From IMG/VR virus record IMGVR_UViG_3300024229_000009, positions 1-51,413 of that record: DNA of 51,413 nucleotides, one strand, 5' to 3'. The notes under the pieces were generated by a model. It did no database searches, had not been told where the DNA came from, and was given only the letters and a program-made list of their open reading frames with translations. The stretch is from a virus. The position numbers were made by a program, and so were the translations under genes. Numbering within the stretch: the stretch's first letter is position 1; the number at the start of each line of letters is the position of its first letter. Shown here piece after piece: positions 10,101 to 51,413 of this stretch.

Positions 10101-10598
10101 CTCTTTAAGAATCTCTTGCTGGTCAGGATCTATAGGTGTTGCTGATGTAGGAAACGGATCGTTAAATTCTACAACAGGGTTTTGACCTGTAATTTTATTC
10201 AATTCTTTGCCTGTAAAAATTTTAGGTTTATTTTCTTTTAATTGTGATTTCGAATCTCCAAAAGAATATATTCCAGGAATATTGATATCTTCTCTGACGA
10301 CTGGATTTTTTTTTTCATCAACAACATCGTTGCTTTCTTCTTCGTATAAGAAAGAGTTATATATGCTTAAACCCTTGTCTTTTGGAGTAATGTTGTAGTT
10401 ACCAGAACTTCTGTATATATCCTCAATATTGTTTTTTAAATTAGGATCTTTTGCAAAAAATAGAGCTCTTTTTTCATCAATTTTTCTTCCTCCATCTTTA
10501 TATAGCTTTATTATAAAATCCTTTGCTTTTTGAATGTTTACCTTTGGGTCTGGATCTAAAACACTTTGTTGTTCGTTAACTTGTTCGTTCACAATCAT
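4095..10598 (-). CDS. Giant internal virion / ejection protein candidate (2167 aa)
   Basis: No enzyme motif is evident. The protein is mostly helical and charged, with glycine-rich hydrophobic stretches near residues 640-666 (around GLSLVGVTGYGG) and 1880-1900 (GFGGTLALALG). A region near 1793-1846 (QTDAVSEAALYQQ, AAIPFQKFILN) resembles the large polyvalent-protein-associated segments found in long phage proteins that leave the capsid with DNA. Pro/acidic-rich linkers occur near 1080-1140. It follows two other likely internal virion genes in the same direction, as in podovirus-type phages. I saw no DxDxD motif of a phage RNA polymerase. The start ATG overlaps a copy of the dispersed 12-base motif. 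Confidence 0.6.
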   Translation of the reverse strand: MIVNEQVNEQQSVLDPDPKVNIQKAKDFIIKLYKDGGRKIDEKRALFFAKDPNLKNNIEDIYRSSGNYNITPKDKGLSIYNSFLYEEESNDVVDEKKNPVVREDINIPGIYSFGDSKSQLKENKPKIFTGKELNKITGQNPVVEFNDPFPTSATPIDPDQQEILKEPSDNNGTYFDFSKGSYKETIKNIPQEIFTQNEEYVVSSLSGLLGNYGVTIKESGIFDQVIVTNAENKSKTFNLFTDAYKAKQRLQYLTSGLSENEITEKINNLEKNRFIQFQEFLTSSYRNAIDFSFSTFSNADINDLPQISSDWFGNNIIPEHEDMRSIVKFLDTGRSITEYTAGGFNQELWESDLQLANKLMSKRNKEILKRAKKKLRRSGSGYGERDLVDPTRLAKKEANELKQKISGIISRYNDTKEVVAEDFGNILNATGKYKEINLNDANYLNALQDSGMNISDMPLDAIKINGKASSLNDLTKKLYDFNQLQEVRKGNIKIEIDDPNKAGLLKGYVQKAKELIRTQEATRNGIFGWQPNPGSASSGILNWMNQSYENVENFVQGAGFSAWELGVNTAYIAYDSLKGLGVDEKTAEAIVYGQTGLPGINNFRKIINPEFFNRVKSEYIPVYDGDLVKSQSAGEFISKLVDPVANSMASTGAFILNPAFGLSLVGVTGYGGNLQSYDQQIRSIKEKKAQGLFLTEEEVNLESMSNTEKRLTSLLKSGVEVGFTSLFTFKYFKSLKKSIPKDKTSFDVNVFSKQYSKHFKEQYVSMFSKLTGIDKKLLLNELSEEQLIAFTNYGIEIAAGNEKFDKDKAIELFTKTGLATLGSTKGISQALRFANKRRLKKAADGLILNNLAVKGENEIHIESMLIESQIKAFEDESAASKTSLDGNVEYESLIKRRVVIDSEINKFKERKKQLLNTMSQGDKISFINKLATLEEKIKIFNNTDTTEETRRLILDDVDKIKKEIKDELSKYPSELSYYFADDTIKLKYDNLAIKAIQEEKIQNGETSFTIDSQDPKVKERASKLYYEDILENKKEFNNEVYAFGFQGLSNRNNDINNFVEDSEVIDFDLSSAINQQKGLGQPVDSDQTQTPLEDDLELNKEEKDDDKKAVVIPPVTPIVIEPEVESIEDPVVVRKRNILEKLNLFNADGNFLKTLPITQQKVIQKYFYDLKKGNIPQYGNVESILKSHEIATRMAADFSEKIKLSSSGNNQGLAIDLLAATNNLAQNIYAGKFIPGGLDVLTADVLMQMIVKDNVKGKPFYDLVQESLRSTAEGQNKPLIKAAQERLLFEQEVLNYNKLLFKNAAAKGEDVTKIKAADKNPNSLVNSYEQFILASLLRKTGKIDPKTGLDTEFIRIKSLILQERNRAKQEYEDKKEQDYKDKYDIWNSLIKKLDIENAKNYKDISSKAFSFNVNAVERMRSMFEENYEGSVSRIRDHENGDKTFFKKGSYIPLFMRGTDSSKISDFFGENSQSLNSSSLKDNTGVNLLDENMRLSPGNFFNSVYAANRGVNMEITAFKNWQTLGNLLDSKVFNNLFEQSNQKDRLFNALKKRKQFFYDDVRRTNMKDIDITSPKGGGMKLLSDVANAAYGSISVVALGRFDQGFSQYSSAVTGSMPLFRNKIAKEYVQQKNILYTTFTNSLTNKTSTDGDIKKRIQGLLGSKDLQNLYSKSRTGFRNSILSELAIDQNQSLPADYYAGAFRLDKDNPDYKSLFSDTARYTFDQVINLLNTSNNLSLNFWLANGDKLAANNVFEAHYLDYKVSKGEKLPKDMKLWWAEQNKNPDLEAVRHADYNIALVMRQTDAVSEAALYQQNVSEGKKTAIRAAIPFQKFILNVKADITNQISVILDPTIPEEQKDFAKKRLQGRVREIMSFNIIKQTGMALRVAGFGGTLALALGVDMDDIEKLGGQNKLIAQDWLPVISGNEQFDFSKTSKQNAESIEDYNIAVENYKVLYSHAEAMNKFSMTYENKYIARQKYGSTESVLKDLIGTMNPLPRVSFAEDALILLANEKFGTDISEFISSDIDKTQTIDGFIDAAFDNLGMLSIGVEQARSIMAAKELYSDGSYSKYAGAFGTQTSYLTAKTPQMRKAVNEAVHQLFKLRLLALTMPGSPRAELDKIADGLERTIEQRFTQSNPDPNYMLLLEGGPLNKEDYERSTLNQMKKARE

Positions 10599-23797: not shown

Positions 23798-26245
23798 TTA
23801 TAGTATGTTTTTTTGATCCATGTTTTGTAGTAAATTAGCCATAGGGTCTTGTGCTTCTTCCTCTTGTTCTTCAAAGTTTGTAGGAGGTAAATCTTGTTTT
23901 CTTTGAGCAATCATCTTACTTTGTTGTGTTGCTTGCTTTTCAGTTCTCTTGTCTTTCCTATCTTCTTTAAAAGATTCTTTGTTTTTAAAGTTCTCTGACT
24001 CCATTTGCTTTAACTGTAATTCAAACTGATATTTCAACTGAAGCATTTCTTTTTGGATTTCAGCTTCTTGTTTCATTTTTTGTAAATCCAATTGACTTTT
24101 TAATTGTTCCAACTGTGACTCTCCTTGAAGCTTCATTTGTGACTCCTGCATTCTCGATTGAGAAGCGGCTTGTGTAGATTGAACATTAGATTGAGTTTGC
24201 ATTTGCATATTAGCTTGTTGCCTTTTCATATCTTCTTGTTCCTTTCTTTGTTTCTTTATTTTAAGAAGGGTATTAGCTAGTGTTAAATTATTAACCTGTC
24301 TAATATCTATAGCATCATCTAAATCTATTTTTTGTGCCTGTATAGATTGTTGTATGTTTTGCTCTAAAAGTTGTTTTTCTTCTTCATCTGGCTCTAACTC
24401 TATAAATATTCCAAAATCATGTAAATGTAAAGTTCTTATATCATTTAATATTTTAAAATTATTCTTACCAATCATTTTTGCAAAATCATCAGCAAAATTT
24501 GAAAACTGTAAAATATCAGATAATCTATAAGATAAAGCTTGACATAATTTCCTTGTAATAAACAAACCTGATTGAACAATATGTTTTGTAGCAGTATTAC
24601 TATTTAATGCAGCTAGCTTTTGTATTCCCACTAATGCGTACTGATCTGGTTTACTTCCATCTCTAGCCTCATTGACTCCTGTAACAGCTCTAATCATACT
24701 AAGTTGGTAATTATACATATTGATCAAACTAGATATTTTTGCATTAGAACCTGAACTTGTTAATTCTTGAATAGGCACTCTAGCGTTATTAAATTCACCG
24801 TCTTCTGTATAACTACGTCCAATTACAGAACCTGTTTGAAAATACATCGATAATGCTTCAGAAGGGTTGTAGGAAGCACCATTACCCAAATCAACACTGT
24901 TTAATCCATCTGCATCAATAAAGACACCATCTGGTATCATTTTAGAAACAACTTGTTGTAGTTTTAAATGGACTAATTGTATCTGATCTGCAAAAGGCAT
25001 CATTCTTTTAACCAAAGAGTCTATTCTTCCTTTTGACATTTTTATTGCAGACGCAATATATGGAGGTATAGTTTTTTGAAAAGACGATTTAGGTCTAACC
25101 ATGTTTTTCATCATCTCCCACTTTAACAAAGTATTTGTTCCTAAAACCATCACACCCTCATACCAAACATCTATTCTTCTTGCTACTTTTTTAAATCTAG
25201 CTTGTTCTGTTTTTGGTGGATTAAAAGAAGCATCCTTCTTTAACGCTTTTTTACCACCATTACTTCCATCTTTAATTTTATATACAATCTCTTTATCGGT
25301 TTTATATGAAAAATATAATAAAGAAACGTTTGATTTATCTAATCCACTTTGTGATGTTAAATTTTGTGTACTTCTATAACCATCATATCTTGAAGCTGTT
25401 TTAGCTATTTGTTCTAACTCCTCTTGCTCTAAATATGGATTTATCTTTTTTAATTCAGATACATGTACAGATTTTACTTCTCCAAAATAATAACAATCTC
25501 TAAAATTTGGATCTTCAGTTTGTGAATAAACAAAATTTACAGGATCTACATATTCTACCTTAACTCCATCATGTATGTCAAAATCGTGTTTAAGTACAGA
25601 TAATCCCAAAACAACATTATCTTCATCTATTCTTCTTTTAATTTCTTCATAGTCATTAATTTCTAGAATTGTTTTAAGAGCTGTCTCTTGAGCAACCTCT
25701 ACACCTTGCTTGTATCTTAAGTTCATATAAAGATCAAGCTCTTCGTCAGATTTAGGAATTACAGATTCTTCAAAGTTAAAAGCATTTACACCTGTATTGT
25801 CTTTTATAATTTTCAATGGCTCATACGCCATCATGTCTGCTCTTAATTCATTTCTGAAATTATCTCTTTCAATAGTAGAAAACTGATCAACTGCTTCCGC
25901 TTTAATATCGTATAATCTATTAGATATACCATTAACTACAATATCTACAAATTTTGGAATTATTGGAACTGGAGTCCAGTCTAAATTCAAATATGAAAGA
26001 TCTCCATTAATAGATAATTCATTTTTATATTTCTCAACAGGCTGTTCTCCTCTAGCATACAATCTCCTAGTTAAGAACTCTGATCGTATCTCTCCATATA
26101 AAGAACTTCCGTAATCTCTTGAAAACCATTCAGACTCTATTGCTCTACCTACACGAAGGCCATATTCTAAACTAGCTTTTTCTTCATCTGGTGCAAATTG
26201 ATTTGGAAATCCACTTCCAGAATTGAACTTTGGTTTGTTTATCAT
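23798..26245 (-). CDS. Portal protein
   Basis: The portal is the dodecameric vertex channel through which the terminase pumps DNA. At 815 residues this one is long, as in crAss-like phages. Supporting features: it lies directly behind the terminase large subunit (two-base gap) and ahead of scaffold and capsid genes; an alpha/beta body includes DPVNFVYSQTEDPNF near 227-241 and clip/stem-type helices near 535-590; and the C-terminal ~170 residues are a Gln/Met-rich coiled coil (QMQTQSNVQSTQAA and following), matching the extended barrel helices of long portals. The Gln-rich tail ends in an acidic segment. Confidence 0.85.
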   Translation of the reverse strand: MINKPKFNSGSGFPNQFAPDEEKASLEYGLRVGRAIESEWFSRDYGSSLYGEIRSEFLTRRLYARGEQPVEKYKNELSINGDLSYLNLDWTPVPIIPKFVDIVVNGISNRLYDIKAEAVDQFSTIERDNFRNELRADMMAYEPLKIIKDNTGVNAFNFEESVIPKSDEELDLYMNLRYKQGVEVAQETALKTILEINDYEEIKRRIDEDNVVLGLSVLKHDFDIHDGVKVEYVDPVNFVYSQTEDPNFRDCYYFGEVKSVHVSELKKINPYLEQEELEQIAKTASRYDGYRSTQNLTSQSGLDKSNVSLLYFSYKTDKEIVYKIKDGSNGGKKALKKDASFNPPKTEQARFKKVARRIDVWYEGVMVLGTNTLLKWEMMKNMVRPKSSFQKTIPPYIASAIKMSKGRIDSLVKRMMPFADQIQLVHLKLQQVVSKMIPDGVFIDADGLNSVDLGNGASYNPSEALSMYFQTGSVIGRSYTEDGEFNNARVPIQELTSSGSNAKISSLINMYNYQLSMIRAVTGVNEARDGSKPDQYALVGIQKLAALNSNTATKHIVQSGLFITRKLCQALSYRLSDILQFSNFADDFAKMIGKNNFKILNDIRTLHLHDFGIFIELEPDEEEKQLLEQNIQQSIQAQKIDLDDAIDIRQVNNLTLANTLLKIKKQRKEQEDMKRQQANMQMQTQSNVQSTQAASQSRMQESQMKLQGESQLEQLKSQLDLQKMKQEAEIQKEMLQLKYQFELQLKQMESENFKNKESFKEDRKDKRTEKQATQQSKMIAQRKQDLPPTNFEEQEEEAQDPMANLLQNMDQKNIL

Positions 26246-26247
26246 GT

Positions 26248-28464
26248 TTATTTTATAATTTCGCTAACAGAACCTTTGTTACTGTATTTTGCAAAGTTAA
26301 CATTTATTTGATTATGTTTTTGTATGTTTGTCCGTTGCTTACTCTGGTTTGCCATTATAGCAAAGCCTGAACTAACCGTAGCATCAAATCTAGTTCTATT
26401 ATTGATATCATAATTAGCCCAATCAAGTAAAGTTCTGTTAAAATACAAATTTCCACAAGAACCATAATCAAGATTTTCAATATCATTAATAACACCAACA
26501 TGGTTTTCAATATAACCTTCTATAGCTTCAGCATGTACAGATATTACAGCTTGAGAAGAGGGTATGCCTCCTAACTCTTTCTCTGATTTCGACAAGGCAT
26601 TTCTGTGTTTATCAGGTCTGTTAAGGGAAAATCTTCTATATCCTCTTTCTTTTAAATAATACAATAATCTTGGTTTGTTGTTTTCTACCAATATAGGCAT
26701 TCCGTAAAAGTGTAAAGCCATTAACACATCTTCATAAAAAATTTCTGCAGTAGGAGGTCTTGATATATACTCAAGAAAAAAACTATTTGTAGGGCCATCA
26801 TCCATATGAAACTTAGTCATACCATGTAAAGCACCTTTAGAACCACCACCTCCCACAGTACCTGATATATCATAAGAGTCACACCCAAAAGCTCCCATAT
26901 GTAAATTTCCTGGTAGTTTTAAGTTCCCTCTTTGTATTACATTGTTCATAATTTGACCTGAAGGTATCCATGAAACAAAAAACCTACCCTTATTATCTGG
27001 AGCCCAAATAACTTCACTATCTCTTTCACCATTTTTCCAATAAAAATTACCTCTATAAATATTACTTTTAATTGCAAAAGAATCATTGTAATCTATCTGT
27101 TCATATATCTTACTAAGATTGAATATTGTATTTTTAGATTCATCTCTAAAAGCATGAGATTCTGTTTTAGGAAACTGTCTATAAAACTCATTTAAAGCAT
27201 CTGAATCATTTTTCAAACCTTCTACTTCATTATCCCAACTATCTAAAACACCTGTATCAATTATATCTCCAGCATTATCAAATACATCTTCTTCTGGAGT
27301 GTCAAATACAGGATATCCATACTCATCAATATAACCTTCAAAATTCCATTCCATAGGAATAAATAAACTATATAAACCAGATTGTGTTTGACCGTTTTTA
27401 TTTCTTTCTAAGACATTAGAATTATTGTAGAGTTTTTTAAAATTTTCCCCTCCTTTATCTAAAGCATTAGATGTAGAGCCCATCATGCACTTTCCTATTA
27501 CTTTCGATCCAAGTCTAAGAGTGGTTTTCGTGACTCTCCAGTTATTAAGAATGTTTTCGGGTTTTTCCCATTTTCCTGCCTCATCATGAACGAGGAGTGA
27601 AAGTTTTTCTCCATCGTAGGAGTTGTTACCGGTGTTTTTCCAATCGATTGTGGTGTCAAGTCCGACCATTTCTTGAACTTTGGTGTTAGACTCGAGTCTC
27701 TTTCGTGTAAATTTCGAAGCGGGTACTCTGTACGCGAGTTCTGTCTTGGGGCGATCCATACCGTCTTGGATGGGTCTGAAAAAGAATGGATAATTGATCG
27801 ATATTGGTACCACCTTATCTGTGAACATCTTTTTAGCATCGGCTCCAGATTTGGACAATATCCCGTACCGTGCATCGGAAGATATGGTTGCCAAGTTAAC
27901 TGTCTCTGCGGATGCCATAAACGAAAAACCGCTACGTCTGTTCTTGAGATAGCACATTCCATAACACCTTTGATCTGCTTTACACGCTTCCCAAAAAATA
28001 AAGAATAATCTGTTTGCTTCTCGAAAGTCTGGCTTCCCAACATCAATCTTGGTCCACTGCAAGTACATATAGTGAGAGCCAGTAATATAAGTAGGAATGC
28101 CTTTGTTAGTAAACCAATAACCTTCTTCACGCTTTTTAAACTCATTATCTATGTAATTGTGCCATTTATTTTTAAAATCATCAGGTAAATCTCTCCAATC
28201 AAATATATTATTAATTCTTTTTAATTCTTTTGGATACTCTTGCCTAGTCCATTTTTTTGTGTTAGCAACATCTTCTTCTTTAGGTAATGCAATAATTAAG
28301 CCTTGAATTGAATATACTTGTCCTATTTGACCTGTTTTGCTTATTATAATAATATCATACTCTTTATTATAACCATATTTCCATGACTTCGATTTGTTTT
28401 TTGATTTTAAAACCTTAGTAGGAATTACATCTTTTAATACAGAATATAAAGTTTGTTCATACAT
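26248..28464 (-). CDS. terL: Terminase large subunit (packaging ATPase-nuclease)
   Basis: The protein powers DNA packaging and cuts the concatemer. Visible motifs: an adenine-binding region near TGSHYMYLQW (128-137), a Walker A variant KNRRSGFS (174-181), Walker B LLVHDE (290-295), and the coupling motif GST (329-331). The C-terminal RNase H-like nuclease shows an Asp in FGCDSYD (near 530) and acidic residues near LVENN. At 738 residues it matches crAss-like terminases. It overlaps the small-subunit candidate by one base. The DNA coding for residues about 125-325 is clearly richer in G+C than the rest of the gene (see findings), while the reading frame stays open throughout. Confidence 0.92.
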   Translation of the reverse strand: MYEQTLYSVLKDVIPTKVLKSKNKSKSWKYGYNKEYDIIIISKTGQIGQVYSIQGLIIALPKEEDVANTKKWTRQEYPKELKRINNIFDWRDLPDDFKNKWHNYIDNEFKKREEGYWFTNKGIPTYITGSHYMYLQWTKIDVGKPDFREANRLFFIFWEACKADQRCYGMCYLKNRRSGFSFMASAETVNLATISSDARYGILSKSGADAKKMFTDKVVPISINYPFFFRPIQDGMDRPKTELAYRVPASKFTRKRLESNTKVQEMVGLDTTIDWKNTGNNSYDGEKLSLLVHDEAGKWEKPENILNNWRVTKTTLRLGSKVIGKCMMGSTSNALDKGGENFKKLYNNSNVLERNKNGQTQSGLYSLFIPMEWNFEGYIDEYGYPVFDTPEEDVFDNAGDIIDTGVLDSWDNEVEGLKNDSDALNEFYRQFPKTESHAFRDESKNTIFNLSKIYEQIDYNDSFAIKSNIYRGNFYWKNGERDSEVIWAPDNKGRFFVSWIPSGQIMNNVIQRGNLKLPGNLHMGAFGCDSYDISGTVGGGGSKGALHGMTKFHMDDGPTNSFFLEYISRPPTAEIFYEDVLMALHFYGMPILVENNKPRLLYYLKERGYRRFSLNRPDKHRNALSKSEKELGGIPSSQAVISVHAEAIEGYIENHVGVINDIENLDYGSCGNLYFNRTLLDWANYDINNRTRFDATVSSGFAIMANQSKQRTNIQKHNQINVNFAKYSNKGSVSEIIK

Positions 28465-28747: not shown

Positions 28748-29308
28748 TCAATTTAGAACAGTACATATATCAATAGTCCTCATTCTATATAAAGTTTCAT
28801 TGTTTATTTGAAACTCATATTCACTATCCTTTGTAAAATTAACTTTATCTCCTTTTTTTACACCTAATTTATCAAGAGTGTTGTTAGAGTATTTAATTAT
28901 ACCTGTGTGGTTTTCAGAACCTTCTTCATAAAGATAAGAATTTTCTTTTTCAATAGGTTTTACAAAACAATATTGACCAACAGCATTCCAATGTTCACAA
29001 TCATGATACAGGTAAAACTGATATGGGTCTATAAAATATATGTTATTTTTAAAATAATTTGGGGATTTTCTAGGTCTTCCCTTCATATCATAATAAATAC
29101 GAAAAATATTATGATGAACAATTAATGTGTCTCCAGGTTTAATTTTTCCTTTATAAGTATAAGGACATTGTATTACTTCAGCAAACCTATTTACATTGAT
29201 GTGGTTTTCTACAGTAGAGTTTATAATTATTTTTTCTCCTGCTAATTCTATCTCATTATTGTAAGCTTCTCCTTTGGGTTTTATAAGGAAAAAAAATGGA
29301 GATTTCAT
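28748..29308 (-). CDS. GroES-like protein with two Cpn10-type halves (186 aa)
   Basis: The C-terminal half reads like a co-chaperonin end: VKKGDKVNFTKDSEYEFQI followed by NETLYRMRTIDICTVL matches the Cpn10 pattern of a GD-V-F turn, an acidic strand, and a final R-x-x-D-I hydrophobic strand. The N-terminal half repeats the same order, with FFLIKPKGE, then AEVIQCP and IKPGDTLIVHHNIF, ending in IYFIDPYQFYLY. I read it as a tandem Cpn10-like duplication. T4 gp31 shows that a phage Cpn10-fold protein can support capsid folding with GroEL. It lies beside the terminase genes. A general beta-barrel adaptor is an alternative. Confidence 0.6.
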   Translation of the reverse strand: MKSPFFFLIKPKGEAYNNEIELAGEKIIINSTVENHINVNRFAEVIQCPYTYKGKIKPGDTLIVHHNIFRIYYDMKGRPRKSPNYFKNNIYFIDPYQFYLYHDCEHWNAVGQYCFVKPIEKENSYLYEEGSENHTGIIKYSNNTLDKLGVKKGDKVNFTKDSEYEFQINNETLYRMRTIDICTVLN

Positions 29309-30220: not shown

Positions 30221-30826
30221 TTATATTATCATAGGCTTTTCGTGGCCTACAACTACATCTAGGTGTGCGTATATTGGAATGTTTGATTTAGACAGGTTGT
30301 GACAAAAGCTTAAAGTTTCTGACAGCATACCACTTTCTCCTGGAACACTGAAGTAAGGAAAAGGCATTCTCTCATAAACACCTCTTTTGATAAGCATAAA
30401 TCCCATAGCCGAAAAAGAAACCTCTATAACACCTGAATTGTTTTTTATATAATCTACGTCTATTCTTTTGTTATTAGTATCAAAACAACCAAGTAAATTT
30501 GTGTTTTCTATTCTGTAAAGCCCTGTAATTACTTCTTTTTTTGCTTTTAAAAGTTTTTCAAAATGCTCAGGGTTAAATACCATGTCAGAATCAATCCACA
30601 TTATATAATCATAAGTAGTTTCACTAAATGGATTCAAGCAAATGTTACAAGTACTTTCAGGGTTAATCATAAGACAGGAATATCTAGCCAAGTGAACTAT
30701 AGAAGTGTATCCATTACTTAGTTCATATTCTATATTGTTTTTTTCACAATACTTTAAAAGCCTTGTCCATGAAGTTAAAAAGTTATTACTGAAATTTCTT
30801 CCAGGGATGCAAAATATTATTTTCAT
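30221..30826 (-). CDS. GT-A-fold glycosyltransferase (family-2-like)
   Basis: The chain starts with a short strand-loop (IIFCIPGRNFS, 3-13), and a DxD-type metal and nucleotide-sugar motif appears in IMWIDSDMVF (75-84, D79-S-D81), as in GT-A transferases. A later SETLSFC segment near 168 fits the acceptor-side acidic position. At 201 residues it is a minimal domain with no membrane part. It lies between tail fibre genes and the packaging genes. Likely jobs are sugar modification of virion, DNA or host surface; which one is unknown. Confidence 0.75.
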   Translation of the reverse strand: MKIIFCIPGRNFSNNFLTSWTRLLKYCEKNNIEYELSNGYTSIVHLARYSCLMINPESTCNICLNPFSETTYDYIMWIDSDMVFNPEHFEKLLKAKKEVITGLYRIENTNLLGCFDTNNKRIDVDYIKNNSGVIEVSFSAMGFMLIKRGVYERMPFPYFSVPGESGMLSETLSFCHNLSKSNIPIYAHLDVVVGHEKPMII

Positions 30827-30836
30827 TTAATTTAAT

Positions 30837-31712
30837 TTAACACATTTGTGGGTAACCTGTATCCACAATACCTTGATTTGTTGATATTTTTATATATGTT
30901 CTATTTCCAACACCACTTGCTGACGGAGGTATTGTATAATATCCTGCTGCTAGCACACTTGTACCTGCACTGTCAGAATAACAGGTATCTCCTGCCGTTG
31001 GGTATTGACCACTACCGTCATGATAGTAGGTTTGATTCATTGTATTTAAAGTACCGTTGAAATTACAATTTGCATTAAACACACCCATTATAGACGAGCT
31101 GTATGATGTTAAAGAAACACATTGTTGAAAGTTTGAAACGATACCAGAGTCGCTTACTTGCATAACATAATCGGTATACGTTGCTGTTACATCGTTATTA
31201 CAACCATTACCACCCCCATAGTTACCTATTTTAATCCATCTATTGTTAGCGTCTAAAACAGTATCCAGATCACAGTCAGAATACAAAAAGTATAACGTAG
31301 TTCCATTTCCTAATGTGCCTGTGTAACCAATAGAAGTGCAGTTTCCAACTGTAGTTGTGCTAGAACAAGCTGCTGACTTGCTTGCGTGACCAATATCATT
31401 TGTTCCGTTATCACCGTTTCCAACACCAGTAACTGATGGAGACCAGCTAAATTCATTTATTGTTTGTGCACTATAATCGTGGTCATAACCATACCATTCA
31501 CTCATTTGATGAGCTACGGCTGTATTTGGAAATTGTGGGGAAGCAGTGTTTGTAGTGTCATAAGAATTACCAGAGCCGTTAGTGTTCCCACCATTTACTA
31601 AGTCGTACATTGATATAGGGTTTGTTATACCACTACTCGAAGAATAGTCATCGTGAACCTTTTCTTTAGATAATCCTAGCATTGATAATGTTCCACTACC
31701 CGGTACTGCCAT
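30837..31712 (-). CDS. Tail fibre-associated / receptor-binding protein candidate (291 aa)
   Basis: The N-terminus (AVPGSGTLSMLGLSKEKVHD) followed by ISMYDLVNGG is a short module I associate with Bacteroidota phage fibres. The rest is Ser/Thr/Gly/Asn-rich and beta-like with many Cys (AACSSTTTVGNCTS, GNGCNN, NANCNFNG), so disulphide-stabilised repeats are possible. The gene starts inside the 3' end of the 1848-residue fibre gene (17-base overlap), so both are probably translated together. It could be a fibre tip or an adhesin. Confidence 0.6.
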   Translation of the reverse strand: MAVPGSGTLSMLGLSKEKVHDDYSSSSGITNPISMYDLVNGGNTNGSGNSYDTTNTASPQFPNTAVAHQMSEWYGYDHDYSAQTINEFSWSPSVTGVGNGDNGTNDIGHASKSAACSSTTTVGNCTSIGYTGTLGNGTTLYFLYSDCDLDTVLDANNRWIKIGNYGGGNGCNNDVTATYTDYVMQVSDSGIVSNFQQCVSLTSYSSSIMGVFNANCNFNGTLNTMNQTYYHDGSGQYPTAGDTCYSDSAGTSVLAAGYYTIPPSASGVGNRTYIKISTNQGIVDTGYPQMC

Positions 31713-34700
31713 TATTTATTTTTAATTGTTCTTTTAAACTATCAACCTCTGCTTTTAATTCTTTTATAGCTTCAATAAATACACCAGCCATATTCCCATA
31801 AGCAACTGAGTACATTCCCTCATCATCTTTTTCAACAACCTCTGGTAAAACCTCTAAAACTTCTTGTGCAATTACACCAACTTTAGTTGATTTATCATCT
31901 TTATCTTTTCTAGTGTATGTAACACCTCTTAATTTAGTAACTTTATCTAAAGCATTATCAATAGTGACTATATTTTCTTTTACTCTTTTATCTGAAAAAG
32001 CTATAACATCACTTGTAGCTCTGATAGTACCCTCAACATCTAAATTATAACTAGCTGATGCCTTGTCAATGCCTATATAGTTATTAGCTGGATTAATATA
32101 AAGGGCAAACCCTTGACCATTCATATTATTGTATATATAAAATATATTATTACGACCTACAACTTCCCATGTATTATTGGCGCTTTGATCTTGAAACTGT
32201 ACTATGTTTCCAGAATTTGTAGATTGTTGTTTTAAATATAAAACCCTAGAACTAGTATTTGAGGTAATTGTAGCCGCATTGCCGACTGATGCTGTTCCAT
32301 CTACTGTTAAATCATTATATACTTTAACATCAGGTGATGAGTCAGCATTACTACTACCTAATATAGCTAATGCATTTGCTAAAGATGTTCCATTAACACT
32401 TTTTGAAAATGTCAAATCATTTCCGCCTCCATGAATAGCATAATTAGCACCAGCAACATCATTAATAGCAATACCAGCAGCTCTTGAACCAGTTCCAAAT
32501 ATTGTCCAATCCCTACTAGCTAAACCTGAGTATGTTGAATTTGGTGGTAAAATATTTAACATTAAAGCACCTTGCCTACCAATACTAAACCTATCAGCGG
32601 CATTATATTGTAAATCAACACCAGCATCCCATGAACTACTTGCGGCTGGATTTGAGGCAAACCTTATTTTAGCACCAGTTGTACTTCCAGTATGCCCATT
32701 AACACCATTTTGTAAGCATGCAATATGTGGAAAGGTAAACATAACCCATCTGTCTGCATTACTACCATATATAGTAGGGTATGCAGATGATCCACCCCAG
32801 CTAAAAGATGCACCACCTATAAATGCAGAATATGTTGCTTGAGCCGCTTCCAGAGTATTTAAAGCTGTTGTTGTACCGACATTTACTTGAAAACTTTCAC
32901 CAGTACCAGCAGAAAATGACATTCTATTGTTTGTAAAATTGTATCTAATACGACCACCATAATCAGTTCCGTTTGCATTACTAAAATCAATCCAACCACC
33001 ATTTGCATTACTTGAAGATATATCAATAAAACCATAACTATTTATATAAGTTCCTATATTGACAGATGTTGTTGTTGGTGAATTTGTTGCCCCAATATCA
33101 GTTACATTATTGCCAAAAACACTTATAGCTGTTTTAACTTGTACTCTTTCCTCTGCTGTAATATTTTTATTAGATGCAATAGTCATAGCCAAATCACTAT
33201 TACTAACCATAAAATAAAGAGGATCTTCTGTAATATTTCTAATATAACCACCAGTTCCAGCTAATCCATTATTCTCCATATAACCTAGCAATAAGCCATA
33301 ATTGCCATTTTTATTTACGCCAAACCATCTTTGACTACCATCTCCTGATGTACTAATTTGCACTGGTATATTACCATCTGCTAGCGACCCACTACCTACT
33401 GATAAAAGTGCTTGTGGATTTGTAACACCGCCTATTCCAACAAAACCAGTTCCATTATCAATTCTCATTCTCTCAACAAAATCTGCTGATGTGGAACTTT
33501 CATCACTATTATAACCAAAAACTAAATTGTCATTTACAGATGTTGTAGTCATTGCTATTCTTTGACTAGAAAAAGCCGCAATTCCACCCCTTGAATTACT
33601 GGTATAATGTGCAAACATTTTTGCATCTGTTCCATAAACCTCAAAATCATAATTTGATGTTGTATTACCAATGACTAAATTTTGTTGTGTAAAATATGCC
33701 AATGTTTCGCTAACATGAAAATCAATACTTGTTTGATTGTGTGCATACAAGTTAAATGATTCATTTGAATGATCATAACTGAATCTACCTGATGTGGAAC
33801 CATCTTGAAAAAACATCTCACCAGTTCTATTGTCAGCACTTTGAAATATAATACCAGGGTCACCGCCGCCGCCAGTTTCTAATTTTATTCTTGGGTCACC
33901 AGTTGCTAATTTTAAATGCAATGTTTCATCAGGGTTATGTGCGCCTATTGCAACTCTTTTAGTTGACCCATCAAATCTAGCAATTCTAGCATGTTTACCA
34001 TCGTATATATCGAAATCTCTTGGTTGAGTTGTACCACCATTATAACCTATATAATTTATTCTTAAATCGGCGGTACCATCTTCGTCCCTTCTAAATATAC
34101 CCAAGCCACCAATAACTATTTCCCTATCTCCATTATCTTGAAATATTGCCAATCCATTAGCATCATCATATGGTGTATCTTTAGCATCAACATGAAGCGG
34201 AGCAATTGCAGTCGTTGCTCCAATTCCTACATATCCAGATGCATTTATAAACATTCTGTTGTTCCAAGTAATTGCTGAATCTATTAATCCAGTTCCAGCA
34301 TTATCAAAATTTATTTGATCATCATTAAACCATATTCTACTTGCCGCATGAGCCGAAGCTCTTAACTCTGCATTTGCTGTTGTAAAATAAAAGTTAGTTC
34401 CAATACCGCCATCAGGGTTTGAATCATTAGCTCTACCGAACATCTTCAAACTACCAAAACCAAAGTTCCTCCAAGTACCATTAGATTGTTCTATTGTTGA
34501 ATTATATGCGACATTTCCATATCCATCTAAAGTATATCTAACAGCTCCGTTAGTGCTTATTTTCATAGCATCTTCACTATGAATATATGCTAAACGACCT
34601 CTGGCAACATTAGTAGAATCACCAAAATGAATACCAACATCGGAGGCATCACCACCACCTAAACCTATATAAGTATGCCCAGTTGATTCGACAACAAGTT

Positions 34701-37242
34701 TATTATTTGAATCTGTTGGATAACTATTTGTGCCATCTGTTACATGCAAAAATGCTTTTGGTGCTACGTTGCCATTTATACCAATGAAATTGTTAGTAGG
34801 ATTTATATATAAACTTTGTCTGCTTAATCCATTATTATAAATATAAAATTCATTATTCCTAGCTACAACCTCCCAAGTATAAGTGTCACTCTCATCTCTA
34901 AACTGTACAATGCCACCAGCATCAGTTGCATGTTGATCTAAATATAGAACTCTAGAATCAGTTGAATTACTTGTAAAATAACCAGTTCGCCCAGCTACAA
35001 AATCTCTAGTTACACTAAAATCACCATTTTCATCAACACTAGCTACAACTAAACCACCAGTTGCATCGGCATCAGCTTGTCTTACAATTCTTACTGTATC
35101 ATTATAATTATCTATTGCATACCTATAACTTCCATCAGTATCGGCTCTTAATGCAATATGACCACCCTCTGCTGTTGTAGTTGGAAAAAACTCAACTCCA
35201 TTAGCACCATCAGTGATTTTCATTACTGTATTCTCAATACTTGAATCACCAATAGCAAAAACAATTTCACTACCAGGTTTGTCAGCTCTAATAACAATTC
35301 CGCCAGTCGATTCACTCGATGCAACTAAAAGTAACGAATCAGCTATATTTGTTCCGCTAGTTGTAAAATCAGAATGTAAATAATGCAACCTAGCAAAGTG
35401 TGTTGAATTTTCGTTAGCTTGAATAGTTGTTATATTATGATCGTTACTTGTTACAATTATATCCTCGTTAAAATATGTGTGCTGTGAGCTGTCTATATAA
35501 GCAGCTTCCTCACCACTACTAAAAAATCTAAGTGTGCCATCACCCCCTCTTATTCTTTCATTGTAATCATTAGCCGAATCAGTATTTGAAAAATCAATCC
35601 AACCAGATAATGCTCCATTACTTACTATTTCTATTGCTGAATACCTATCAGCACCAGATTCTAAAACTCCAATATGCACTCCATAATCTTGACCAGTTGT
35701 ATTTAAACCACCTTTACTAACATGAATTGGTGAATCAGCTACTGCTGTTCCAACTCCTAAATTGCCATCCATAATTATATCTCCTGCAAAAGTTGCTGAT
35801 GAATTATTAATTGTAAGTTGTGTAGTACCTGCTGTTTTTAATTGAATATTAGCACCTGCACCACCACCTGTATTACTATCTACATTGATACCTAAAACAT
35901 CTCCAACTGCATTAATATTTGAAGCTATTGAATCTGTACCTAAAGTTAAATCGCCACCTGTTGCAGTAATATCTCCTGCAAAATTTGCGTTTTGAGATGA
36001 ATCTATTGTTAAGGCAGTAGTTACAGAACTTCCTGTTGAAAACACTAAATTTGTTGAATTTGAATGTGATATTCTTGATACTTCCGTTCCAGAATGTCTG
36101 AATATAATAGCTTCTGTACTTCCAGATGCACCATCAAGTTCTAATATGGCATTTCCTGTTGTGTCTATTTTTATACCTGTTGCGCTTGTAGTTGTAATCG
36201 AACCAGCAAAAGTTGCATTGTTGCTAGAATCTAATTGTAAAGGTGTTGCCCAACTAATACTAGAATTTGGTGTATCTGAACCTGCCCTTTGAAAATTAAT
36301 TACATCATCATTAAACCATATTCTGCTAGTGCCATGTGCTGATATTCTTTGTTCTGCACTAGCTGTTGTAAACTTAAAGTTTGTTCCAATACCGCCATCT
36401 GGATTTGCATTATTAGGTCTTGCAAACATACTTAAACTACCAAACACTAAATTTCTCCATGTACCAGATGAATTTTCTGGTATCACATTAAAACCAACAT
36501 TACCATTACCATCTATATTAAAAGAATCTGCAGAATCAGTTGCATTATAAACTCTAAAAGTTCCATTGTTATTAAAAATACTCCAGTCATCATTATTATC
36601 TGTGTCTGTTAGATTAATTCTTGGTAATGTTGATTCAATACTAATATTTCCTGCAAAAGTTACGTTTCTATCAATTTTATTTGGCACATCATTTGACCTA
36701 CCAGCACCAAATACTTTTATTAATCCATTACTTCCATGAGATTTTATAACTATTGCTATTTTTTGAATTAATTCATCATTTGCAGTTGGTTTAGTAGCTG
36801 TAAACGCACCAGCAGTTGTAGATACATATAGCTCATCACCAATAGTAAAACTAGATGTGTCAATTCCTGAAACAGCTCCAAACATAACCGCTGCGCCTTC
36901 AGCTTCATCTGCAATAGTTTCGTTTAGCACACCAATAGCTGGCATTTTAGCTGCATCATTTGCATCTGCTTTAATAACCTCTATTACATTTCCACTTGGT
37001 GGTGTTGCTGTTGGTGCTGCATGAACTACAGTTCCTTTTGATAAAGAACCACCTGATACGTTTTTAACTGTAACCTCTATTCTTTCTGCTGTGCTTGAAC
37101 TAGAATCTATCCATTGTGTTCCTGTTCCTGTAGATGATAATACTTGGCCAGAACTTCCAGCAGCATTACTGCCATCATATAATTCATTTGTGATTTTGAT
37201 ACCCTCTTGTGCATCAATCTGATTCTTAAATTTTTGAGCCAT
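31696..37242 (-). CDS. Giant tail fibre with S74 intramolecular chaperone (1848 aa)
   Basis: The body is a Ser/Thr/Asn/Gly-rich beta repeat protein (units such as NATFAGSI, FAGDIT), as expected for a trimeric fibre. The last 100 residues are a peptidase S74 chaperone: FSDKRVKENI at 1749-1758 supplies the Ser (1750) and Lys (1755) used for self-cleavage, followed by GVIAQEV, EVLPEVV and a terminal coiled coil (FIEAIKELKAEVDSLKEQL). S74 folds the trimer and then cuts itself off. Two pairs of long internal duplications are present (near 34.3/36.3 kb and 32.1/34.8 kb). A TAnnTTTG box lies 16 bases upstream. Confidence 0.9.
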   Translation of the reverse strand: MAQKFKNQIDAQEGIKITNELYDGSNAAGSSGQVLSSTGTGTQWIDSSSSTAERIEVTVKNVSGGSLSKGTVVHAAPTATPPSGNVIEVIKADANDAAKMPAIGVLNETIADEAEGAAVMFGAVSGIDTSSFTIGDELYVSTTAGAFTATKPTANDELIQKIAIVIKSHGSNGLIKVFGAGRSNDVPNKIDRNVTFAGNISIESTLPRINLTDTDNNDDWSIFNNNGTFRVYNATDSADSFNIDGNGNVGFNVIPENSSGTWRNLVFGSLSMFARPNNANPDGGIGTNFKFTTASAEQRISAHGTSRIWFNDDVINFQRAGSDTPNSSISWATPLQLDSSNNATFAGSITTTSATGIKIDTTGNAILELDGASGSTEAIIFRHSGTEVSRISHSNSTNLVFSTGSSVTTALTIDSSQNANFAGDITATGGDLTLGTDSIASNINAVGDVLGINVDSNTGGGAGANIQLKTAGTTQLTINNSSATFAGDIIMDGNLGVGTAVADSPIHVSKGGLNTTGQDYGVHIGVLESGADRYSAIEIVSNGALSGWIDFSNTDSANDYNERIRGGDGTLRFFSSGEEAAYIDSSQHTYFNEDIIVTSNDHNITTIQANENSTHFARLHYLHSDFTTSGTNIADSLLLVASSESTGGIVIRADKPGSEIVFAIGDSSIENTVMKITDGANGVEFFPTTTAEGGHIALRADTDGSYRYAIDNYNDTVRIVRQADADATGGLVVASVDENGDFSVTRDFVAGRTGYFTSNSTDSRVLYLDQHATDAGGIVQFRDESDTYTWEVVARNNEFYIYNNGLSRQSLYINPTNNFIGINGNVAPKAFLHVTDGTNSYPTDSNNKLVVESTGHTYIGLGGGDASDVGIHFGDSTNVARGRLAYIHSEDAMKISTNGAVRYTLDGYGNVAYNSTIEQSNGTWRNFGFGSLKMFGRANDSNPDGGIGTNFYFTTANAELRASAHAASRIWFNDDQINFDNAGTGLIDSAITWNNRMFINASGYVGIGATTAIAPLHVDAKDTPYDDANGLAIFQDNGDREIVIGGLGIFRRDEDGTADLRINYIGYNGGTTQPRDFDIYDGKHARIARFDGSTKRVAIGAHNPDETLHLKLATGDPRIKLETGGGGDPGIIFQSADNRTGEMFFQDGSTSGRFSYDHSNESFNLYAHNQTSIDFHVSETLAYFTQQNLVIGNTTSNYDFEVYGTDAKMFAHYTSNSRGGIAAFSSQRIAMTTTSVNDNLVFGYNSDESSTSADFVERMRIDNGTGFVGIGGVTNPQALLSVGSGSLADGNIPVQISTSGDGSQRWFGVNKNGNYGLLLGYMENNGLAGTGGYIRNITEDPLYFMVSNSDLAMTIASNKNITAEERVQVKTAISVFGNNVTDIGATNSPTTTSVNIGTYINSYGFIDISSSNANGGWIDFSNANGTDYGGRIRYNFTNNRMSFSAGTGESFQVNVGTTTALNTLEAAQATYSAFIGGASFSWGGSSAYPTIYGSNADRWVMFTFPHIACLQNGVNGHTGSTTGAKIRFASNPAASSSWDAGVDLQYNAADRFSIGRQGALMLNILPPNSTYSGLASRDWTIFGTGSRAAGIAINDVAGANYAIHGGGNDLTFSKSVNGTSLANALAILGSSNADSSPDVKVYNDLTVDGTASVGNAATITSNTSSRVLYLKQQSTNSGNIVQFQDQSANNTWEVVGRNNIFYIYNNMNGQGFALYINPANNYIGIDKASASYNLDVEGTIRATSDVIAFSDKRVKENIVTIDNALDKVTKLRGVTYTRKDKDDKSTKVGVIAQEVLEVLPEVVEKDDEGMYSVAYGNMAGVFIEAIKELKAEVDSLKEQLKINNGSTG
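32060..32267 (-). repeat. Fibre duplication B, downstream copy
   Basis: It encodes a stretch running from SSRVLYLKQQ through TWEVVGRNN and FYIYNN to YIGID, and is paired with about 34770-34977, where the same order of words occurs (SRVLYLDQH, TWEVVARNN, FYIYNN). The copies diverge at many positions, so the duplication is old. Confidence 0.7.
34293..34515 (-). repeat. Fibre duplication A, downstream copy
   Basis: It encodes a segment with GTWRNFGFGSLKMF, NPDGGIGTNF and RIWFNDDQINF. The partner copy at 36280-36502 has GTWRNLVFGSLSMF, NPDGGIGTNF and RIWFNDDVINF. Both copies are about 223 bases and in frame. Confidence 0.75.
34770..34977 (-). repeat. Fibre duplication B, upstream copy
   Basis: Partner of 32060-32267: the words SRVLYLDQH, GGIVQFRD, TWEVVARNN and LYINP occur in the same order. 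Confidence 0.7.
36280..36502 (-). repeat. Fibre duplication A, upstream copy
   Basis: Partner of 34293-34515 with about the same length and the same internal word order, nearer the fibre's N-terminus. Confidence 0.75.
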
Positions 37243-48259: not shown

Positions 48260-48748
48260 ATGATAGTCAAATCATACAAAAGAGGTAAAAGAAAAAAATT
48301 CAAAAAACAACCCAGAACAAGGGATTATAACTTTCTAAAATACTATCGCGTAGTACGTTACTATATTAAAAAAAAATACGACATAACCCTTATGGAGCTT
48401 GATATGATACTTTACTTGTATGATATGCCTTTTTTTAGAAAGGAAGACTTTAATTATTACGGCAACACTATGTCTTGGGATAAGAAAAGGTTTTATGAAA
48501 TGATAAAAAAAGGATTGATCAAAGAGTGGAGGCCAGGAAAAGAACAGTATGCTAAAGCAAAAATGTATGAATTAAGCCACAAGGCCAAAAGTATTTGTAG
48601 TTTGACTTATAAAAAACTTCTTCAAGAAGAAACTATTTCTGAAAAGACAGTTTCCAATCCTATATTTAAAAAAGAAACCTACATGGATAAAGTTTATAAG
48701 AATGTAATTGAAAAAATGAACAGGTCTAAATCCCCTTCTGATAATTAA
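48260..48748 (+). CDS. Winged-helix-like DNA-binding protein candidate (162 aa)
   Basis: The only plus-strand gene in the right 47 kb. The N-terminus is strongly basic (KRGKRKKFKKQPRTRD). Then a run of helices with ITLMELDMILYLYDM and MSWDKKRFYEMIKKGLIKEW (near 70-89) looks like a winged helix of the MarR/PadR sort. The product would bind DNA as a regulator. Its 3' end overlaps the convergent gene at 48726 by 23 bases. Divergent promoter placement suggests it may control the neighbouring tiny-gene operon; this is inference. Confidence 0.5.
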   Translation: MIVKSYKRGKRKKFKKQPRTRDYNFLKYYRVVRYYIKKKYDITLMELDMILYLYDMPFFRKEDFNYYGNTMSWDKKRFYEMIKKGLIKEWRPGKEQYAKAKMYELSHKAKSICSLTYKKLLQEETISEKTVSNPIFKKETYMDKVYKNVIEKMNRSKSPSDN

Positions 48749-49472
48749 AAATTGCTTTTTTTAAAACAGAATAATTTCTAATTGATGTTATTTTTTTTAA
48801 CTCTCTCATTTTCAGCTTATTACCTCCTTCTGTTAAAACATCTATTGCTTCAATGGCTTTTGCTAAGTCGTTTTCAGTTTTTATATCCTTGTTAATTTTT
48901 TCTAAAACTCTTAATTGTTCTTTATCAAAGTACCATTTTACAAGATGACGAGATTTATTTAAGTGTTTGGCTACTGAAGTTGTGGTGATTTTTATTTTAT
49001 CAAACCATAAATCCTCAATCGCCTCACTGATTTGTTCACTTGTTGGTCTATTTTTTCTACCCACAAGCATTCCAACTATTCTCATTTTTTCTTTCTTATC
49101 AATAATTTTCATTGGATTGAAGATTATTTTTCTAAGTTTTGGGCAATACGGTTCTTTTTTCTTGTCAAAAACTTTTTCAACCATATTTTCCACTCTATTT
49201 TGTCCGTAGGTACGAATTATGTGTCCATTTTGCCTGTCAGAAAGCAAATTGAAGTGAATTTTCATTTTTTCTAGGTCGAAATCGTTATTTAACCAGATAA
49301 ATTTCTCTGCAATGTACTCGAGTTCTGAAAAAGTGTTAATTCTTCTAGTGGTTCGGTATAAAGAAAAGAATTTTACACCATTTGGATAGTGCAAATACTC
49401 CCTTCCATTGAAAACAAAGGGAGTTTGCATTATAATTCTATCTTTTTCGTAATCAAATAACGGAATCAGCAT
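48726..49472 (-). CDS. Hypothetical protein with possible helix-turn-helix (248 aa)
   Basis: The start at 49472 lies 20 bases inside the GroES gene; an ATG at 49430 would remove 14 residues (start MQTPFVF). A stretch KITTTSVAKHLNKSRHLVKWYF (near 155-175) looks like a helix-turn-helix, and the tail is Lys-rich. The rest is helical without enzyme motifs. It lies right after groES in the same direction, so chaperonin and this gene may form one operon. A transcription factor or replication-linked DNA binder is possible. Confidence 0.5.
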   Translation of the reverse strand: MLIPLFDYEKDRIIMQTPFVFNGREYLHYPNGVKFFSLYRTTRRINTFSELEYIAEKFIWLNNDFDLEKMKIHFNLLSDRQNGHIIRTYGQNRVENMVEKVFDKKKEPYCPKLRKIIFNPMKIIDKKEKMRIVGMLVGRKNRPTSEQISEAIEDLWFDKIKITTTSVAKHLNKSRHLVKWYFDKEQLRVLEKINKDIKTENDLAKAIEAIDVLTEGGNKLKMRELKKITSIRNYSVLKKAIFNYQKGI

Positions 49473-49731
49473 TATCTACTGTAACTACAACGTCTCTTTC
49501 ACGAATGGCTTTGTATTTTTCGCCTTTAATTCTTAATTCTGATCCGGCAACCTTGTCAAAATAAACAAAAAAGCCTTTTTTAACTTCTTTTACTAAATCT
49601 CCTGTGGTTATTACTTCTCCTACAACGTATCTAATGTTTAAATCTGACTTGTCGCTAATAATAAGACCTAATTCATTTTTTTGAACTATTTCTTGATCTT
49701 TTACTATTATAAAATCACCTACTGCTTTCAT
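49453..49731 (-). CDS. groES: Co-chaperonin GroES (Cpn10)
   Basis: Cpn10 caps GroEL rings. The 92-residue chain follows the family plan: AVGDFIIVKDQEI at the start, a mobile-loop region with NELGLIISDKSDLN in which LII takes the place of the hydrophobic tripeptide, then GEVITTGD, VKKGFFVYFDKVAGSELRI, and KYKAIRERDVVVTV. The start overlaps the upstream 70-residue gene stop (TAATG), and its end overlaps the next gene by 20 bases. It is in the same operon as GroEL, which lies one small gene upstream. Confidence 0.85.
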   Translation of the reverse strand: MKAVGDFIIVKDQEIVQKNELGLIISDKSDLNIRYVVGEVITTGDLVKEVKKGFFVYFDKVAGSELRIKGEKYKAIRERDVVVTVDNADSVI

Positions 49732-49943
49732 TAGTATTGCTGTAACTTTGGTGTTCTATTATAATCTATACTTGATTTTTCTTCATCATCAATATTCCAT
49801 TTAGTAATAACTTGTCCTTCAAGGTCTATAACAGTGTATCCTTGTTTAGTTAAAAGACTAATTGCTACATTAATGTTTTTTGCTTGTTCTCGAAAATGGC
49901 TAAATATTTGATTTTCGAATGGGTGGTGATCGTGTTTTGGCAT
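49731..49943 (-). CDS. Hypothetical protein between groEL and groES (70 aa)
   Basis: The chain begins His-rich (PKHDHHPFENQIFSHF), then helix-like AKNINVAISLLTKQGYTVID, and ends charged. The His cluster could bind metal. It sits in the four-base gap-and-overlap pattern of the chaperonin operon (four bases after groEL, TAATG with groES), so it is likely co-expressed and may work with the chaperonin. The family is not recognised. Confidence 0.6.
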   Translation of the reverse strand: MPKHDHHPFENQIFSHFREQAKNINVAISLLTKQGYTVIDLEGQVITKWNIDDEEKSSIDYNRTPKLQQY

Positions 49944-49947
49944 AATT

Positions 49948-51413
49948 TTAGTTTTTATTGATTCTTTTATTAGAGATTACACATGATGTTGTAAGTATTA
50001 TTCCTGCTACCGATGCTGAATTAAGCACAGCGTTTTTGGTAACCTTGTATGGATCTATAATTCCCATAGAAAACATATTCCCATATTTTTTATTACGTAC
50101 ATCGTATCCGTAATCTTTTTTATTACTATCCATGACGTGTTCAAAGACTTCTTCTTTTTCTCCAGAATTATCTAGAATTTTATAAAACACATCTTCAATA
50201 GATGACCATACTAATTCAAAACCTGTCATAAACGATTCGTCACAGCTTCGAGGGGCCTTTTTCGCCGATTTTTTCTTTAGTAGGTTTACTAGAGCTATAC
50301 CCCCACCAGCAACAATCCCTTCATCTAAGGCTGCTTTAGTTGCATGGATGGAGTCGTCAACTCTATCTTTTTTCTCTTTCAGTTCAACTTCAGAGTTTCC
50401 TGATAGTTTTATAGTAGCTACACCACCAGATAGTTTTGATAGTCTATCTTGTAGGTGCCACTTATCAGATTTATTTTTGGTTAGTTTAATTTCACTATTA
50501 AGCCAGCTAATAATTTCATCTCGCTTTTTATTTTCATTTTCATTAAATACCAATATGGTTTCATTAGAATCGGAGATAGCTTGTTTACATCCTCCTAAAT
50601 AGCTAGCATCTATGTTTTGTGAGGAGTCTCCAGACATTTCTGAAATAATCTTAGCTCCTGTCATAAGTGCTAAGTCTTCTAACAGCTCGAATCTTTTTAT
50701 ACCAATACCTTCTGGGCTAAAAAAGTTTGCTGTTAAATTTTTCTTATTTATGTTTTGAGTTATAAATAGCTTAACCCTATCGTCTAGATCAGCTATAATT
50801 AGTAGAGGTCTCTTTTGTTTTATTGATTGTTCGAAAGCAAAATGTAATCTATCGTGCATATCGATCTTAGAATCGCTTATAACAATAAGTGGATTATTGA
50901 ACTCTACTGTTTTCTTTTTAAGATTATTTACACTAAAGGGAGTACCATATCCTCTTTTGATACGAGTTCCGTTAGTTATCTCGGTGTAGTCTTGTCCTGT
51001 TGTGGAGTCGTCCATTGTTACTACTCCGTTCTTTCCTACTTGCACATATGCATCAGAAATCATTTCACCTAGATAAGAATCCCCATTGGCTGATATGGTA
51101 GCAACTTCAGAAAGTGTTTTATCGTTTACTTTTTTAGTAAATCCTTTTAATTGTTCAACAATTTGTTTTGCTGCATACTCTATTCCACTTTTAGCCTGGT
51201 TAACATTTTCTATGTTGTCTATCTCTAAAAAGCATTTGTCTATAATAGATTTAGCAAGTACACATGAAGTTGTTGTACCATCTCCAGCTTCTGATGCTGT
51301 TTTCTGGGAGGCTTGTTTTAATATACTACATCCTAAGTTTTCTACAGGATCCGAAAGTAATATACTGTTAGCTACAGTTACTCCATCTTTAGTAATGTGA
51401 GGGTTTCCGAATT
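49948..51413 (-). CDS. groEL: Chaperonin GroEL (N-terminus beyond window)
   Basis: The frame stays open to the right edge, so the ATG at 51063 is internal and about 60 N-terminal residues are missing. Visible hallmarks: ITKDGVTVA, the ATP-binding AGDGTTT, IVAGGG, and the catalytic Asp in RVDDSIHATK. Domains in order are the equatorial part, an intermediate and apical domain (LIIADLDDRVK, TGAKIIS) and the equatorial end (YGNMFSMGIIDPYKVTKNAV). There is no GGM-type tail. It is quite diverged from bacterial GroEL but keeps the key ATPase residues, so a working phage chaperonin is likely. A 70-residue gene separates it from groES. Confidence 0.9.
   Translation of the reverse strand, partial: FGNPHITKDGVTVANSILLSDPVENLGCSILKQASQKTASEAGDGTTTSCVLAKSIIDKCFLEIDNIENVNQAKSGIEYAAKQIVEQLKGFTKKVNDKTLSEVATISANGDSYLGEMISDAYVQVGKNGVVTMDDSTTGQDYTEITNGTRIKRGYGTPFSVNNLKKKTVEFNNPLIVISDSKIDMHDRLHFAFEQSIKQKRPLLIIADLDDRVKLFITQNINKKNLTANFFSPEGIGIKRFELLEDLALMTGAKIISEMSGDSSQNIDASYLGGCKQAISDSNETILVFNENENKKRDEIISWLNSEIKLTKNKSDKWHLQDRLSKLSGGVATIKLSGNSEVELKEKKDRVDDSIHATKAALDEGIVAGGGIALVNLLKKKSAKKAPRSCDESFMTGFELVWSSIEDVFYKILDNSGEKEEVFEHVMDSNKKDYGYDVRNKKYGNMFSMGIIDPYKVTKNAVLNSASVAGIILTTSCVISNKRINKN

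Follow-up and report, generated by a model that had tools for sequence, protein, structure and literature searches.

Nishimura et al. studied a marine group of Bacteroidetes phages and reported GroEL in 36 of its 78 genomes (PMC5332604), and phage Panino carries both GroEL and GroES (PMC11590407). Peptides of the GroEL of phage phi38:1 have been seen in infected cells as well as in free-virion samples (PMC13288928). Phage T4 uses the GroEL of its host, and the chaperonins of the jumbo phages EL, OBP, and AR9 form single rings or undergo ring splitting and work without a co-chaperonin (PMC9598537). In chloroplasts, two-domain proteins join a single-domain co-chaperonin in seven-domain lids (PMC5780408). 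GroEL, GroES, and a GroES-like protein encoded next to the large terminase (TerL) are already annotated in the cultured phages Elemovirus and Callevirus, and this three-gene set is therefore not new. In Elemovirus (NC_062741), groES comes after groEL, and TerL has a GroES-like gene of 180 aa beside it, with all three chaperonin genes annotated in RefSeq; Cellulophaga phage phi38:1 (Callevirus) has GroEL, Cpn10, and a tandem-type GroES beside TerL.

The stretch of DNA analyzed here (the window) covers an IMG/VR record in full (51,413 bases, no end repeats), and the contig is probably a fragment of a phage genome. It encodes GroEL, its operon-mate and cognate GroES, and, beside the terminase, a GroES-like protein, as in Elemovirus and phi38:1. 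It differs from Elemovirus, whose GroEL is 40% identical, in having a 70-aa gene between groEL and groES and in the strand of the TerL block, which in Elemovirus is opposite to that of groEL-groES. In phi38:1 the order is instead Cpn10, a 90-aa gene, and GroEL (L264:93-2216), and this 90-aa gene gave no match to the profile built for the small gene of the window. We consider it likely that the window encodes a chaperonin system of group I that has been passed down within a phage family and that folds phage proteins with the help of GroES and of a second lid in the manner proposed below.

The large terminase gene lies at 26248 to 28464 on the minus strand (phrog_6681, 4.5e-168) and is adjoined by the portal protein gene at 23798 to 26245, also on the minus strand (phrog_6547, 1.6e-156). 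TerL was 63% identical to that of MW202828 and 43% identical to that of the Flavobacterium phage Elemovirus, followed by Cellulophaga phages. The TerL sequence puts the phage close to MW202828, Elemovirus, and Callevirus, and through these relatives the phage was linked to Bacteroidota. The leader is A-rich and has no obvious Shine-Dalgarno site, consistent with this link. Elsewhere in the window, the tail-fiber-like protein of 1,848 aa encoded at 31696 to 37242 has at its C terminus a Peptidase_S74 domain (chaperone of endosialidase), which adds a further domain of chaperone type to the phage. A small glycosyltransferase-2-like protein is encoded at 30221 to 30826, flanked by structural genes, and a 2,167-aa protein at 4095 to 10598, adjoining virion structural genes, had no Pfam or PHROG match at an E value of 0.001.

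At the contig end, the minus strand carries in order groEL (open), a 70-aa open reading frame (ORF), groES, and a 248-aa ORF. The last of these, at 48726 to 49472 on the minus strand, overlaps groES by 20 nt and encodes a protein of unassigned function that gave no match in Pfam and PHROG family searches; the gene is kept downstream of groES in the clade of the window and in L015 and L016. A 162-aa ORF (phrog_17028) lies on the plus strand at 48260 to 48748. By eye it resembles a same-strand gene found directly 3' of groES in L017, L020, and L026, its orientation being inverted in the window.

The groEL ORF (49948 to 51411, minus strand) comprises 487 aa, which cover a group I chaperonin from residue ~43 to its C-terminal end. 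It matched Pfam Cpn60_TCP1 (1.1e-50; 173.2 bits against a curated cutoff of 34.3) and phrog_5725, chaperonin groEL (3.8e-119), and its best alignments to solved GroELs in the PDB began at residues 42 to 44 and ran to the C-terminal core. The lack of an N-terminal part had been named in the original prediction as a finding that would refute it. In 12 close relatives (L002 to L013; 72 to 80% identical) the gene is complete at 531 to 535 aa, and the missing N terminus is therefore a sequencing limit rather than a defect. Alignment in E. coli numbering located the ATP-site residues D52 (TKDG), D87 (AGDGTTT), G86 to T91, D398, and D495; the AGDGTTT motif and the catalytic Asp are kept, as had been predicted. 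The segment T30 to P33 falls outside the window and reads TLGA in 12 of 12 close relatives; the changes at the ATP site are small, with P33 being A in these relatives and A480 being V. The nucleotide-site aspartates and GDGTTT were invariant in 79 viral GroEL sequences. Judged from the alignment, the ATPase residues are complete in the part of GroEL that is present.

Formation of ring contacts, which the original prediction had also named as decisive, turned out differently at the two kinds of site, since the residues of the ATP site are kept, unlike those that join two stacked rings. In the window GroEL, R452 is replaced by Y, E461 by K, S463 by E, K105 by L, and A109 by N, at positions where bacteria have R/K, E/D, S/A/G, K/R/N, and A/S, respectively. 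V464 was left out of this comparison because its state depends on gap placement. Such interface residues are not strictly defining, as single-ring group I chaperonins exist. In E. coli, the changes R452E, E461A, S463A, and V464A together turn GroEL into the single-ring form SR1 (PMC5653362). Because the residues joining two GroEL rings are not kept, we predict, from the alignment of a gappy region (E. coli 430 to 465), that the phage GroEL ring probably works singly or splits easily.

The apical domain was altered as well. Its positions L234, F204, L259, V263, and V264 bind clients and GroES in E. coli GroEL. In the window these read L234H, F204S, L259K, V263T, and V264Q; L237 and Y203 are both F, and Y199 is kept. 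At the five replaced positions 234, 204, 259, 263, and 264, all 12 close relatives agree with the window, except that position 263 is A in ten of them. Since the client- and lid-binding surface is altered, the phage GroEL probably prefers phage clients and phage lids; alternatively, the lost hydrophobic residues could mean weak binding of GroES or clients.

The groES gene (49453 to 49731, minus strand) encodes a co-chaperonin of 92 aa that matched Pfam Cpn10 (4.6e-08; 33.4 bits, curated cutoff 21.1) and phrog_3188 (7.5e-11). The mobile loop had been predicted to be kept, and a hydrophobic GLIIS stretch indeed aligned to GIVLT. The roof hairpin is short, with 10 residues compared with 19 in E. 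coli and 14 in many sampled bacteria, and a 10-residue roof region was found in 66 of the 67 viral GroES sequences compared. The roof of T4 gp31 is likewise reduced.

Between groEL and groES, the 70-aa ORF (49731 to 49943, minus strand) encodes a protein of unassigned function. Its dN/dS was 0.07 to 0.15 where dS was unsaturated (the window and L245 to L247), similar to that of GroES, and because a value of about 0.1 indicates purifying selection, it is by this measure a real coding gene and a chance ORF was ruled out. A tightly spaced, His-rich gene had been predicted here; the gene and the spacing were confirmed, with 4 nt separating groEL from the ORF and a 1-nt overlap (TAATG) joining it to groES, but "His-rich" amounts to 4 His in 70 residues, all within the first 16 and not conserved in relatives, for which reason a functional His-rich metal site is an unlikely reading. 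The conserved core of the small protein is NxIF...AIxLLxxQGYTVIDLEGxxITK. A model of the 70-aa protein consisted of a helix and a beta-hairpin at low confidence (pLDDT 63), for which Foldseek gave no meaningful fold match, and searches of family databases returned only weak matches that were not counted as evidence.

The small gene was variably present among relatives. At the junction it encodes 70 to 71 aa in L002 to L004, L014, and L245 and 51 aa in L005 to L007, and L010 has two copies. It is absent from the junction in L008, L009, L011, L012, and L013, where groEL and groES overlap, and none was detected elsewhere in these five partial contigs; it was also missing from L015 and L016, and no other groEL-groES locus in the GroEL scan had it. 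A single-protein viral scan found a homologue at the groEL/groES junction of a distant lineage (L249, L252, and L253), where the GroELs of L249 and L252 are 36 to 38% identical to that of the window. Recent joint transfer of the small gene and groES between the lineages was rejected, as the groES of L252 is only 39% identical to that of the window. Other homologues lie away from the junction in phages L248, L250, L251, L254, and L255 or in unrelated neighborhoods (L256 to L262), and in phage G004 the sole detected copy is ~9 kb from groEL. The chaperonin role implied for this gene by the original prediction was thus not borne out. Because it is absent in some close relatives and located elsewhere in other phages, the gene is, on its distribution, dispensable and not a chaperonin subunit, a candidate role that could be discarded. 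It is best read as an optional accessory gene that Bacteroidota phages carry and that has come to lie within the chaperonin operon.

The third gene, at 28748 to 29308 on the minus strand, lies one gene upstream of the large terminase and encodes a GroES-like protein of 186 aa. The protein matched phrog_13932, "co-chaperonin GroES" (5.2e-23). Its C-terminal half matched a GroES profile (probability, 93%; E value, 2.7e-07), and the N-terminal half had no such match by sequence. The AlphaFold model (pLDDT 80) had its best PDB match, over approximately the full length, to 7ekq_R (E value, 8.6e-05; TM, 0.54), followed by Cpn10 chains. The structure search gave 7EKQ only the title "CrClpP-S2c"; we take its chains R and Q to be the Cpn20/Cpn23 cofactors. 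The model suggests that the protein probably consists of two tandem GroES domains and is Cpn20-like. The original prediction of three chaperonin-related genes in this segment is upheld by the match to phrog_13932 and by the resemblance of the model to tandem-GroES Cpn20/23 chains.

This gene was present in 20 of the 21 contigs with a groEL-groES cassette examined in the GroEL scan, the exception (L011) being a 43-kb fragment, and in none of five contigs with other phage GroELs. Conversely, all three contigs above 58 kb that were found via the 186-aa gene also hold GroEL; 10 of the 15 shorter ones lacked it, which as fragments are not decisive on linkage. At least 586 relatives of the protein were found in viral contigs, where existing annotations read GroES, cpn10, or hypothetical. 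Among cultured relatives, Elemovirus, MW202828, phi38:1, and Panino have both GroEL and a gene of the 186-aa type, and Gundel_1 matched neither family. Phage phi18:3 has GroES and the tandem-type gene without GroEL, and the parts are therefore not obligatorily linked. The gene thus goes with the terminase block and in most, but not all, cases with GroEL. The literature that we found, with incomplete coverage, contained no discussion of a tandem structure for the terminase-linked GroES. A 187-aa protein with two GroES matches was also observed in Flavobacterium phage MaF61 (L272:80-643), encoded directly upstream of a divergent groEL.

Phage GroEL had been called uncommon, which is correct for phage records overall (253 of 50,697) and not for this phage group, in which it is the rule. 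The original prediction had called for a phylogeny with bacterial and phage copies. In a tree of 61 GroELs, the 22 phage sequences with the groEL-groES arrangement formed one clade (support, 100/99), with the 30 sampled bacterial sequences and nine other phage GroELs on the other side; the bootstrap was not fully settled and some branches were long, and AR9, EL, MaF61, phi14:2, and phi38:1, which have very long branches, were left out. The order groEL then groES, mostly with overlapping genes, was found in 66 of 67 viral loci having both genes on one strand, and bacterial loci were groES-groEL in 80 of 80. The remaining viral contig, L053, has the groES-groEL order and a groEL that branches with Polynucleobacter; it may have been captured recently from a host or may be a piece of host DNA. 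The separate phage clade and its inverted gene order argue strongly against recent acquisition from a host, and groEL-groES was probably inherited within a Bacteroidota podovirus-like phage family. Recent capture of a Bacteroidota host gene would fit the top-scoring PDB match of the window GroEL, a Bacteroidetes-group ancestor, and the position of phages SJC03 and L043/L044, which branch within or beside Bacteroidota, but it is highly improbable: it is already refuted by the separation of the phage clade from the bacterial GroELs sampled in the tree, the order of the genes is inverted relative to bacteria, and the window GroEL is at most ~40% identical to any bacterial GroEL returned. It is also very unlikely that the phage GroEL has lost its folding activity and persists as a relic or moonlighting protein, as its polar residues at the apical binding positions might suggest. 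Such a loss is contradicted by the retention of groEL together with groES and by the nucleotide site, whose aspartates and GDGTTT motif do not vary in the 79 viral sequences and which shows no changes beyond small ones (e.g., P33A and A480V).

The two other proteins invite rival readings of their own. The junction position of the 70-aa gene could mean that its product is a dedicated chaperonin modulator (an adaptor, a client selector, or a ring regulator), and both its occurrence there in two distant GroEL lineages and the purifying selection on it are in keeping with this. We regard this as unlikely given the many junctions that lack it (L008, L009, L011 to L013, L015/L016, and the other groEL-groES loci scanned), the distant copy in G004, the unrelated neighborhoods of L256 to L262, and the failure of the model to match a fold. 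The reading of the 186-aa protein as a head or packaging part reusing the GroES fold, e.g., as a ring at the portal, is a more serious contender, although still a doubtful one. Its gene is just upstream of TerL and the portal gene in phi18:3, Panino, and phi38:1 and beside TerL in Elemovirus, and phi18:3 has it without a phage GroEL; however, the protein matches GroES family profiles, its gene co-occurs with the groEL-groES cassette, and the two-domain GroES of MaF61 directly precedes its groEL.

In the chaperonin system that we propose, the phage GroEL would form a seven-membered ring after infection and bind unfolded phage proteins, its likeliest clients being virion proteins that are abundant or large. 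It would hydrolyze ATP, and the phage GroES would cap the ring and enclose the client for folding. The 186-aa protein, probably built of two GroES domains, would serve as an additional lid for the phage GroEL or for the host GroEL, and the 70-aa protein would probably be expressed with groEL and groES without being needed for chaperonin function. By analogy with the lid proposed for chloroplast Cpn10/Cpn20, one may go further and imagine a three-part chaperonin in which a naturally single-ring GroEL is closed by a mixed lid of seven domains, one from a single GroES and six from three two-domain GroES proteins, giving a phage-specific chamber for head and tail proteins; we view this version as a long shot. 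A search of the literature found no biochemistry on this phage GroEL clade.

The window set shares with E. coli GroEL/GroES the group I fold, the ATPase residues, and a co-chaperonin with a mobile loop, but departs from it in gene order, in the replaced inter-ring and apical residues, and in the shorter GroES roof (10 versus 19 residues). EL, OBP, and AR9 likewise encode GroEL homologues; the window has groES in the operon, which argues against membership of the EL/OBP/AR9 type, and its GroEL is much closer to bacterial GroEL than to those of EL and AR9 (25 to 26% identical to the window). T4 gp31 is also a phage-encoded lid of GroES fold, which the 186-aa model matched weakly (1g31), but the phage of the window, unlike T4, has its own GroEL. 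The pairing of one single-domain and one two-domain GroES-like lid recalls chloroplast Cpn10 and Cpn20, and the model matched 7EKQ chains R and Q; in the structural alignment, however, the identity to Cpn20 was 14%, and a joint lid in the phage of the window is putative. Because the EL, OBP, and AR9 chaperonins do without a lid, phage chaperonins of group I that bring their own form a distinct branch, and as far as we found it has been little studied. Tests would be worthwhile for the tandem lid and for the predicted loss of stacking between rings; the small gene matters least. A phage family that keeps GroEL-GroES together with a tandem GroES offers a natural test of which viral clients depend on a chaperonin of the phage's own, of how a group I chaperonin and its co-chaperonin function should the rings fail to stack, and of whether the tandem lids of phages have an origin separate from those of plastids, and cultured relatives with laboratory hosts (Elemovirus with Flavobacterium and Callevirus with Cellulophaga) make these questions testable.
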